A stretch of DNA of 64,000 bases from Deltaproteobacteria bacterium (GTDB taxonomy: Bacteria > Myxococcota_A > UBA9160 > PR03): contig JAPSFT010000003.1 in the NCBI GenBank assembly GCA_035063765.1, positions 62,001 to 126,000 of the forward strand, given 5' to 3'. Position 1 is the first letter of the stretch; each line of letters begins with the position of its first letter. The position numbers and the translations under genes are program-made. The notes below the pieces were generated by a model that had not been told where the DNA came from, did no database searches, and was given only the letters and a program-made list of their open reading frames with translations. Positions 44,291 through 47,648 of this stretch are shown here, piece after piece.

Positions 44291-45312
44291 AGCCGATCGA
44301 CCTGCGCAGCGACACCGTGACCCGGCCCACGGCCGCGATGCGCGAGGCGATGGCGCGCGCGCCGCTCGGCGACGACGTCTACGGCGAGGACCCGAGCGTC
44401 AACGCGCTCGAGGCGGCCGCGGCGGCGCGGGTCGGAAAGGAGGCGGCGGTCTTCGTGCCCTCGGGCACGATGGCGAACCAGATCGCGATCCAGCTCCACA
44501 CGCGCCCCGCCGAGGTCGTGCTGGCGCCCGCCGGCGCGCACGTGCTGCGCTACGAGGGCGGCGCCGCCTCGGCGCTGGCCGGCGTGCAGATCGCGACGAT
44601 CGGCGCGGCGGGCCGCTACACGGCTGCCGACCTGCGCGCGGCGGTCGTGCCGGCGGCCGACCCGCACCTCGCCCCCACCACGCTGCTGGTGGCCGAGGAC
44701 ACCCACAACGCCTCGGGCGGGCGCGTCTTCCCGCTCGCGGCGCTGCACGAGGCGGTCGCGGCCGCGCACGAGCTCGGCCTGCGCGCGCATCTCGACGGCG
44801 CCCGCCTCTTCGACGCCGAGGTGGCGAGCGGCGTCCCGGCGGCGCGCATCGCCGCGCCCTTCGACACCCTCGCGTTCTGCTTCTCGAAGGGGCTCGGGGC
44901 GCCCGTCGGCTCGGTGCTGTGCGGGACGCGAGAGGCGATCCTGCGCGCGCGACGCGTACGCAAACGGCTCGGGGGCGGCATGCGCCAGGCCGGCATGCTC
45001 GCCGCGGCGGCGCTCCACGCGCTCGAGCACCACGTCGAGCGGCTCGCGCAGGACCACGCGCACGCGCGCCGGCTCGCCCGGGGAATCGCGGAGCTCGGCC
45101 TGCGCGTCGCCCCGGAGCCCGAGACCAACATGGTGCTCTTCGAGGTGCCCGACACGATGGCCTTCCTGCGCGCCACCCGCGCCCGCGACCTGCTCGTGAA
45201 CCCGATCGAGCCCGGCCGCTTCCGGGCGGTGACGCACCTCGACGTCTCGTCCGACGACGTCGAGGACGCGCTCGGCCGGCTCGCGGAGGCGCTCGCGGAG
45301 CTGCGGGCTTGA
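44287..45312 (+). CDS. ltaE: Low-specificity L-threonine aldolase (beta-eliminating lyase family)
   Basis: A 341-residue PLP enzyme. The N-terminus IDLRSDTVTRPTAAMREAMA and DDVYGEDPSVNALE are diagnostic. FVPSGTMANQIAI, the Asp region HLDGARLFDAE and the PLP Lys in FCFSKGLGAPVGSVL are all present. It cleaves threonine or allo-threonine to glycine and acetaldehyde. It starts at GTG 44287, overlapping the yhbY stop. It ends 32 bp before the trp leader peptide. Confidence 0.92.
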   Translation: MKPIDLRSDTVTRPTAAMREAMARAPLGDDVYGEDPSVNALEAAAAARVGKEAAVFVPSGTMANQIAIQLHTRPAEVVLAPAGAHVLRYEGGAASALAGVQIATIGAAGRYTAADLRAAVVPAADPHLAPTTLLVAEDTHNASGGRVFPLAALHEAVAAAHELGLRAHLDGARLFDAEVASGVPAARIAAPFDTLAFCFSKGLGAPVGSVLCGTREAILRARRVRKRLGGGMRQAGMLAAAALHALEHHVERLAQDHAHARRLARGIAELGLRVAPEPETNMVLFEVPDTMAFLRATRARDLLVNPIEPGRFRAVTHLDVSSDDVEDALGRLAEALAELRA

Positions 45313-45344
45313 CGCGCTCCCGCCCGTGTGGGACCGTCCCCGCC

Positions 45345-45410
45345 ATGTCTCCGCGCGCGCTGCTCGTCGGCATGCCCTCCTTCGGCTGGTGGTGGCTCCC
45401 TCGCTCCTGA
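45345..45410 (+). CDS. trpL: trp operon leader peptide with three consecutive Trp codons
   Basis: A 21-codon reading frame: MSPRALLVGMPSFGWWWLPRS then TGA. Three tandem TGG codons (45385-45393 region) in such a short frame, followed at once by an antiterminator/terminator pair and by an anthranilate synthase gene, are the classic layout of ribosome-mediated transcription attenuation. When Trp-tRNA is scarce the ribosome stalls on the TGG run and the downstream terminator does not form. Sinorhizobium trpE(G) uses a similar leader with three Trp codons. A clear Shine-Dalgarno was not seen. Confidence 0.85.
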   Translation: MSPRALLVGMPSFGWWWLPRS

Positions 45411-45467
45411 GGCGGCCCTCGTTCGCGCGCGCATGGACCCAGGCCGCCTCCCGAGGCGGCCTTTTTC
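45409..45467 (+). promoter_or_regulatory. trp attenuator: competing antiterminator and terminator helices
   Basis: GAGGCGGCC occurs at 45409-45417 (just after the Trp codons, overlapping the leader stop) and again at 45453-45461. Both can pair with GGCCGCCTC at 45442-45450. Pairing of the first with the middle segment is the antiterminator. Pairing of the middle with the second is the terminator. Stalling at the Trp codons, about 20 nt upstream, would favour the antiterminator. A clear 1:2 helix was not identified. Confidence 0.82.
45441..45467 (+). terminator. Intrinsic terminator of the trp attenuator
   Basis: AGGCCGCCTC (45441-45450) and GAGGCGGCCT (45453-45462) are perfect reverse complements, forming an 8-10 bp GC stem with a tiny CC-centred loop. 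They are followed by a T-run (five Ts ending at 45466). In this very GC-rich window such a T-run after a perfect stem is rare. Confidence 0.85.
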
Positions 45468-45494
45468 GTTTCCCCCTCCGCTGGAGAGCCCGTG

Positions 45495-47648
45495 ATGAGT
45501 GAAGCCCAGAGCTACCGGACCCGCGGTGGGCTGCGCGTCGAGCGCACGGTCGAGGCGATCGACGGCGCGGCCGCGATCGAGGTGCTGACCGCCGCGCTCG
45601 ACGAGCGGCGCGGCGTGCTCTTCGCGTCGAGCTACGAGTACCCGGGCCGCTACACGCGCTGGGACCTGGGCTTCGCGGATCCGCCGCTCACCGTCGTCGC
45701 GCGCGGCCGCGAGCTGCGCGTCGAGGCCGCGGGCGAGCGCGGCCGCGTGCTGCTCGCCCCGATCGCGCGCGCCCTCGAAGCGCTGCCTTCACTCGAAGCC
45801 TTCGAGGCCAGCGCCGGTTCGCTCCGCGCCCGGCTCGCCACGCCCGAAGGGCGTTTCCCCGAGGAGGAGCGCAGCAAGCAGCCCTCGGTGTTCTCGGTGC
45901 TGCGCGCGCTCGTCGAGCTCTTCGGCTCGCCCGAGGACCCGCACCTCGGGCTCTACGGCGCGTTCGGCTACGACCTGGCCTTCCAGTTCGAGCCGCTGCG
46001 CCTGTGCCTCGAGCGCCCGGCGCGGCAGCGCGACGTCGTGCTCTTCCTGCCCGACGAGATCGTGGTCGTCGACCACCGCCGCGAGCTGGCGACCCGGCGG
46101 CGCTACGAGTTCGAGGCCGACGGGCGTTCCACCGCCGGCCTCGCCCGAACCGGCACCGTGACGCCCTTCACGCCCGCGGCGCCCGGGGCCGTGGCCCGCC
46201 CGAGCGACCACGGCCCGGGCGAGTATGCCGCCGCGGTGCGCACCGCGCGCGAGGCCTTCCGGCGCGGGGACCTCTTCGAGGTGGTGCTGTCCCAGACCTT
46301 CGCCGAGCCGGCCGCCGCTTCGCCCGCCGAGATCTTCCGGCGCCTGCGCGTGCGCAACCCCTCTCCCTACGGGTTCCTGATGAACCTGGGCGACGGCGAG
46401 TACCTGGTCGGCGCCTCGCCCGAGATGTTCGTGCGCGTCGAGGGCCGCCGCGTCGAGACCTGCCCGATCGCGGGCACGATCCGGCGCGGCCGGGACGCCC
46501 TCGAGGACGCCGAGCAGATCCAGACGCTGCTCTCCTCGCCCAAGGAGGAGAGCGAGCTCACGATGTGCACCGACGTCGACCGCAACGACAAGTCGCGGAT
46601 CTGCGAGCCGGGCTCGGTGCGCGTGATCGGCCGGCGCCAGATCGAGCTCTACTCGCGCCTGATCCACACCGTCGACCACGTCGAGGGCACGCTGCGCCCC
46701 GGCTTCGACGCGCTCGACGCCTTCCTGTGCCACACCTGGGCCGTCACCGTGACGGGCGCGCCGAAGGCCTGGGCGATGCAGTTCGTCGAGGACCACGAGC
46801 GCTCCGCCCGGGCCTGGTACGGCGGGGCCGTCGGCCTGGTCGGCTTCGACGGCAGCCTCAACACCGGGCTCACCCTGCGCACGATCCGGGTGCTCGACGG
46901 TGTCGCCGAGGTGCGCGCCGGGGCGACGCTCCTCTACGACTCCGATCCCGAGGCCGAGGAGGAGGAGACGCACGTGAAGGCCTCGGCGCTGCTCGACGCG
47001 ATCCGCAGGCCCGCGGGCGTCGAGGCCGAGGCGCCGCGCGTCTACCAGACCCGGGTCGGCGCGGGGCTGCGCATCCTGCTCGTCGACCACCAGGACTCGT
47101 TCGTGCACACGCTCGCCAACTACCTGCGCCAGACCGGCGCCGAGGTGGTGACCTGGCGGGCCGGCTTCCCGCACGCCGAGCTCGACCGGCTGCGGCCGGA
47201 CCTCGTCGTGCTCTCGCCCGGCCCGGGCTCGCCCTCCGACTTCGACGTCCCCGGCACGCTCGGGGCGCTGCGCGAGCGGCGGCTGCCGGCCTTCGGCGTG
47301 TGCCTCGGCCTCCAGGGCCTGGTCGAGCACCTCGGCGGCAAGCTCGACGTGCTGGGCTATCCGGTGCACGGCAAGGCCTCGACGATCGAGGTGCGCGGCG
47401 GCGGGCTCTTCGAAGGCCTGCCGCGGCGCTTCCGCGCCGGCCGCTACCACTCCCTCCATGCTCGCTCCGACGCGCTCCCGCTCGAGCTGCGCGTCACCGC
47501 CGAGAGCGAGGACGGGGTCGTCATGGCCGTCGAGCACGAGCGCGAGCCGCTGGCGGCCGTGCAGTTCCACCCGGAGTCGATCCTGACCCCCGGAGAGATC
47601 GGGCTGCGGATCCTCGCCAACGCGGTGGCGAAGCTGGTGCGGCACTGA
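45495..47648 (+). CDS. trpE(G): Fused anthranilate synthase TrpE-TrpG
   Basis: A 717-residue protein. Residues 1 to about 510 are the chorismate-binding TrpE domain (IAGTIRRGRDALEDAEQIQT, ELTMCTDVDRNDKSRICEPG, VTGAPKAWAMQF). From about residue 517 a glutamine amidotransferase domain follows (LVDHQDSFVHTLANYLRQTG), with the nucleophile in GVCLGLQGL and the His/Glu in VQFHPES. It makes anthranilate from chorismate and glutamine, the first step of tryptophan synthesis. The ATG at 45495 is six bases after GGAGAG; a GTG at 45492 is adjacent. Its regulation is by the upstream attenuator. trpD and trpC are not adjacent. Confidence 0.95.
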   Translation: MSEAQSYRTRGGLRVERTVEAIDGAAAIEVLTAALDERRGVLFASSYEYPGRYTRWDLGFADPPLTVVARGRELRVEAAGERGRVLLAPIARALEALPSLEAFEASAGSLRARLATPEGRFPEEERSKQPSVFSVLRALVELFGSPEDPHLGLYGAFGYDLAFQFEPLRLCLERPARQRDVVLFLPDEIVVVDHRRELATRRRYEFEADGRSTAGLARTGTVTPFTPAAPGAVARPSDHGPGEYAAAVRTAREAFRRGDLFEVVLSQTFAEPAAASPAEIFRRLRVRNPSPYGFLMNLGDGEYLVGASPEMFVRVEGRRVETCPIAGTIRRGRDALEDAEQIQTLLSSPKEESELTMCTDVDRNDKSRICEPGSVRVIGRRQIELYSRLIHTVDHVEGTLRPGFDALDAFLCHTWAVTVTGAPKAWAMQFVEDHERSARAWYGGAVGLVGFDGSLNTGLTLRTIRVLDGVAEVRAGATLLYDSDPEAEEEETHVKASALLDAIRRPAGVEAEAPRVYQTRVGAGLRILLVDHQDSFVHTLANYLRQTGAEVVTWRAGFPHAELDRLRPDLVVLSPGPGSPSDFDVPGTLGALRERRLPAFGVCLGLQGLVEHLGGKLDVLGYPVHGKASTIEVRGGGLFEGLPRRFRAGRYHSLHARSDALPLELRVTAESEDGVVMAVEHEREPLAAVQFHPESILTPGEIGLRILANAVAKLVRH

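Follow-up and report, generated by a model that had tools for sequence, protein, structure and literature searches.

A predicted ribosome-mediated tryptophan attenuator upstream of fused trpE(G) in a deltaproteobacterial genome and in lineages beyond the rhizobia

Introduction

In the leader of the Escherichia coli trp operon (Rfam RF00513, Trp_leader), competing RNA segments are governed by the position of the ribosome. Alphaproteobacteria, including Sinorhizobium meliloti, have a trpL-trpE(G) attenuator (Bae and Crawford 1990, in the account given by PMC7298713). The trpL of S. meliloti has been shown experimentally to be leaderless and translated, and both its RNA, rnTrpL, and its peptide, peTrpL, act in trans (PMC7298713, PMC10117765). 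Outside the Proteobacteria, classical trp attenuators with double or triple Trp codons have been described in Corynebacterium and Streptomyces (PMC1262725). A survey from 2010 listed such systems as known from Proteobacteria and Actinobacteria only and then added the Firmicutes (PMC2965389).

Here we analyse a trpL-trpE(G) locus in a 64,000-nt stretch (hereafter the window) of a genome deposited as Deltaproteobacteria bacterium. As in the E. coli trp leader, ribosome position would decide between competing segments, but the locus has a single fused gene instead of trpEDCBA and no clear Shine-Dalgarno sequence before the leader ORF. With S. meliloti it shares consecutive Trp codons, competing antiterminator and terminator hairpins and a fused trpE(G) downstream; a leaderless trpL, shown in S. 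meliloti, is predicted in the window. The two differ in lineage and in their peptides, which comprise 21 aa in the window vs. 14 aa and bear no resemblance outside the Trp run. The Corynebacterium and Streptomyces attenuators precede other trp arrangements, e.g., trpB1EDGC, in contrast to the fused trpE(G) of the window. In all tested features save a match to an Rfam model, the attenuator belongs with the ribosome-mediated trp attenuators, and its closest counterpart is the trpL-trpE(G) type of Alphaproteobacteria.

Results

The original prediction described a 21-codon frame with three consecutive TGG codons, two copies of GAGGCGGCC against a single GGCCGCCTC, a T-run and the ATG of trpE(G), and all of these were confirmed to the base (Table 1). 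The leader ORF, trpL, which carries TGGTGGTGG, extends from the ATG at 45345 through 21 sense codons to the TGA at 45408–45410, and the gene order in the window is yhbY, a threonine-aldolase-like gene, trpL and trpE(G). The antiterminator formed by segments 2 and 3 comprises 9 bp, the terminator hairpin (45441–45462) was also picked up by an independent scan with 0.2 expected, and the terminated RNA is predicted to span approximately 45345–45466, i.e., 122 nt. In 20,000 dinucleotide-preserving shuffles of 45313–45494, a WW-containing ORF appeared in 8, a terminator of that quality in 97, the three-segment set in one and the complete arrangement in none. Scanning both strands of the window in 60-base steps, we found the full set to be unique to the trpE(G) leader.

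Table 1 Features of the trpL-trpE(G) locus, numbered from the first base of the window
Feature	Position	Strand	Remarks
Predicted -35 element, TTGACG	45309..45314	+	Shares bases with the stop codon of the preceding gene
Predicted weak -10 element, GACCGT	45332..45337	+	17 nt past the -35 element, 7 nt before the ATG
trpL leader ORF	45345..45410	+	MSPRALLVGMPSFGWWWLPRS, then stop; Trp-run ORFs in the same place in relatives
Sensing codons, TGG TGG TGG (three consecutive Trp)	45387..45395	+	Kept in relatives
Segment 2, GAGGCGGCC	45409..45417	+	Overlaps the trpL stop codon; antiterminator with segment 3
Segment 3, GGCCGCCTC	45442..45450	+	Common to antiterminator and terminator
Segment 4, second GAGGCGGCC	45453..45461	+	3' arm of the terminator
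T tract (TTTTT, T5) of the intrinsic terminator	45462..45466	+	
Shine-Dalgarno-like GGAGAG of trpE(G)	45483..45488	+	The trpL ATG has a weak one only
trpE(G), fused anthranilate synthase (components I and II)	45495..47648	+	ATG at 45495; 717 aa

The downstream protein carries the Pfam domains Anth_synt_I_N, Chorismate_bind and GATase, and its score of 1104.3 bits against NCBIfam TIGR01815 (TrpE-clade3), far above the cut-off of 739.15, bears out the call of a fused trpE(G). As in the rnTrpL type, the leader stands before a single-gene unit with a TrpE-clade3 enzyme directly downstream; trpE(G) is apparently monocistronic, the next likely gene lying on the opposite strand. A TrpG-like amidotransferase gene adjoins trpD on contig C4 of the same genome (G000:C4:168772-170354), and at least part of the remaining Trp pathway is encoded away from the trpE(G) locus.

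Folding of the leader, which had been proposed as a check of the original prediction, was simulated with the ribosome footprint masked at chosen codon positions. The antiterminator formed with a probability of 0.97 for a ribosome whose A site was on the first Trp codon and of 0.82 for one on the second, and with the A site at the stop codon, where segment 2 is covered, the antiterminator fell to 0.00 and the terminator formed at 0.87. At the third Trp codon the full-length leader favoured the terminator (0.65 vs. 0.22 for pairing of segments 2 and 3), and 2:3 pairing reached 0.99 with polymerase advanced only as far as segment 3. Because a pause at codon 3 favours the terminator in the full fold, the switch must use codons 1 and 2 or the order of folding. 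The ribosome-free leader also formed the terminator (0.87), and the stability of the unmasked leader RNA was modestly above that of shuffles (z of -2.1).

In the mechanism that we propose, transcription would begin at the trpL ATG or close to it, with a ribosome following the polymerase and translating trpL. A shortage of charged tRNA-Trp would make the ribosome pause on the TGG run, leaving segment 2 free to pair with segment 3, and the resulting antiterminator would block the terminator and permit transcription of trpE(G). When Trp is plentiful, the ribosome would reach the stop codon and cover segment 2, so that segments 3 and 4 would pair beside the T tract and transcription would end after approximately 122 nt. 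This is the response to Trp that we infer for the cell.

The stretch 45309–45347 reads TTGACG-N17-GACCGT-N7-ATG, and the geometry of this predicted promoter would place the transcript start at or next to the trpL ATG. A TTGAC lies 34–38 nt 5' of an in-frame start codon in 15 of the 32 non-redundant leaders, compared with 0.34 expected and a maximum of 2 at such spacing in 200 shuffles. At the same loci, the median anti-SD energy is -2.55 kcal/mol before trpL vs. -7.0 kcal/mol before trpE(G). The promoter spacing and the want of a strong Shine-Dalgarno sequence fit the prediction that trpL is leaderless, with the 5' end of the RNA at or near the ATG; the experimentally leaderless trpL of S. meliloti makes this likely in the window too, and we infer both the start site and leaderless translation.

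More than half of the 80 fused-trpE(G) loci surveyed on genome contigs have a short Trp-run ORF approximately 100–290 nt upstream, and a script recovered the full set of Trp-run leader and segments 2, 3 and 4 at about 40 loci; the same attenuator parts were found before fused trpE(G) at about 50 of 87 loci. Carriers occur in the window's own order (Deltaproteobacteria/Myxococcota-labelled MAGs), among MAGs labelled Binatia, Rokubacteria, Chloroflexi and Acidimicrobiia, these labels being taken as deposited and some possibly wrong, and among Alphaproteobacteria such as Azospirillum, Skermanella, Stappia, Bartonella and others. Two leaders (L019, L022) have WEW or WCW where others have the Trp run. 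In alignment A1, comprising 35 leaders, the terminator shows 14 double-change cells vs. 3.5 in shuffles and the antiterminator 5 vs. 1.4, counts that lean towards the model because these leaders were selected for a Trp run and a hairpin. Pairing is 96% in register for the terminator (31–69% in slid registers) and 88% for the antiterminator (25–54% when slid), and segments 2 and 3 covary as GCGACC/GGTCGC in Bartonella (L042) and as GACGGC/GCCGTC in L029. A failure of relatives to keep the Trp run and the two helices had been named beforehand as grounds for refutation; these features are conserved, with covariation, and together with the masked folding this supports the ribosome-mediated attenuation that had been predicted. 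The attenuator had also been singled out as worth recording in a lineage with no close rhizobial content, and although it does lie outside rhizobia it is no isolated oddity, being widespread beyond them.

A covariance model, R1, was run on the window's genome and on 80 genomes of its order. The window's genome yielded a single match, and 6 of the 80 genomes gave strong ones (39–61 bits), each directly before a fused trpE(G). Fused trpE(G) itself is patchy in the order, being found in 10 of 41 genomes, most others carrying split trpE and trpG. Among 20 split trpE loci of the order, no convincing leader with a Trp run was seen; the sole WW-containing frame, at L110, was judged not leader-like. 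Of the weak R1 matches at approximately 28–35 bits, those inspected one by one proved to be bare terminators (L124, L127–L131) or, at L123, the end of a Gly-rich gene followed by an ordinary terminator, and were discarded, the exceptions among the weaker matches being L126 (37 bits) and the loci of genus g63.

Fused trpE(G) genes without such a leader occur at two loci of the window's order, L092 (G003, of the window's family) and L093, and also in Sorangium; as the leader is absent from some fused genes, the switch is dispensable. At L092, trpE(G) directly follows a yhbY-like gene, its start falling at the extreme end of that gene, and gives the impression of having moved into the yhbY-like transcript. 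Fused trpE(G) genes of some Rhodobacteraceae (L048, L076, L077, L079) have no Trp run, and the short frames upstream contain spaced single Trp codons (for example, one ending in KRWQSWPFSRRW), perhaps a different leader design. At a Rokubacteria locus (L008), a GGAGCCGCCC...GGGCGGCTCTCGTTGTTT terminator precedes trpE(G) and no Trp-run ORF was found upstream, perhaps the trace of a decayed attenuator.

The Rfam model RF00513 (Trp_leader) gave no match in the window at the gathering threshold or at E values up to 10 and matched none of 16 related loci at gathering. Neither a T-box nor any other Rfam cis-regulator was matched in the window, where hits up to an E value of 10 were chance hairpins alone. 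As no Rfam family covers the leader, alignment A1 could serve as the basis of a new one.

R1 also matches 16 genomes of genus g63, which belongs to another family of the window's phylum; three g63 genomes have no match. At these loci (L148–L153, L175–L184; e.g., L149, with the leader upstream of 1501–2139), the leader encodes a Tyr-Phe-Phe-Trp-Phe run, as in MKTHCDIRYFFWFTD, and segments 2–4 read GAGGTGGCC/GGCCGCC/GGCGGCC. A TTGAC usually lies 37–39 nt before the ATG, matching the spacing of the predicted leaderless promoter. The leader precedes a 213-aa protein that has lost the catalytic Cys in 16 of 16 cases and is TrpG/PabA-like both by profile comparison with the window's amidotransferase domain and by predicted fold (Foldseek E value of 4.5e-11 to aminodeoxychorismate synthase), one of the five fold models being confident (pLDDT of 80) and the other four not. 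The arrangement suggests an aromatic-amino-acid attenuator that may have been re-targeted to a pseudo-amidotransferase. At L126 (G361, family f21), a leader encoding MSTRRTGLYFWWFAS with GGCGGCC/GGCCGCC/GGCGGCC hairpins stands before a 71-aa ORF that has no Pfam match.

Discussion

The hairpin could do no more than serve the threonine-aldolase-like gene upstream (stop at 45312) as its intrinsic terminator, the Trp-run ORF being incidental. From the end of that gene to the terminator is 130 nt, and the scan shows no other terminator for it. However, loci with different upstream sequence keep the Trp run, the promoter spacing and a segment 2 placed at the stop codon, and the joint arrangement was absent from all shuffles, which together leave this explanation extremely improbable. 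That RNA and peptide may act in trans as in Sinorhizobium had been put forward with the original prediction. The main role of the leader might even be to supply a small RNA and a peptide that act in trans, cis attenuation being the means of producing them. An architecture and a predicted leaderless start as in S. meliloti would fit such a role, and the separate trpG-like gene with trpD on contig C4 could be a target. We consider it unlikely as the main role. The peptide beyond the Trp run is not conserved among leaders; in a crude duplex test, the complementarity of the leader to the trpG and trpD starts did not rise above a background too broad to be informative.

A recent transfer in which a rhizobium or some other alphaproteobacterium supplied both leader and trpE(G) would agree with the patchy occurrence of the fused gene in the order and, in a quick maximum-likelihood tree, with the large distance of the fused proteins from the order's split TrpE. 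In the same tree, members of its family and order are the window's neighbours, and it falls outside the Alphaproteobacteria; its TrpE(G) has approximately 65% identity or less to any alphaproteobacterial one; several non-alphaproteobacterial clades share the leader. These observations render a recent transfer very unlikely. Leaders are present in most major subclades of the tree, and parsimony requires 10 changes of leader state among the 87 fused proteins. As AU tests rejected neither a forced grouping of the window with Alphaproteobacteria (p of 0.26) nor one with Rhizobiales/Rhodobacterales (p of 0.25), our claim is limited to there being no sign of recent rhizobial transfer.

The leader upstream of trpE(G) is almost certainly a ribosome-mediated trp transcription attenuator. 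Its anatomy, conservation, covariation and simulated folding switch are demonstrated here, and this reading is further supported by the restriction to trpE(G) and by the logic of the pathway. Whether the leaderless Trp-run attenuator with trpE(G) constitutes an old cross-phylum chassis outside the Alphaproteobacteria, recoded in g63 for a Cys-less TrpG-like protein, we regard as an evenly balanced question.

As far as the accessible literature goes, novelty lies in the broader range and in a leaderless start predicted for the unit in general. Rhizobia, in which the trpL-trpE(G) switch has been studied, are not its only carriers, and it is present in MAG lineages for which the accessible literature has no leader-peptide attenuation on record. 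The conserved spacing from promoter to ATG predicts that leaderless translation of the leader would be a general property of the trpL-trpE(G) unit.
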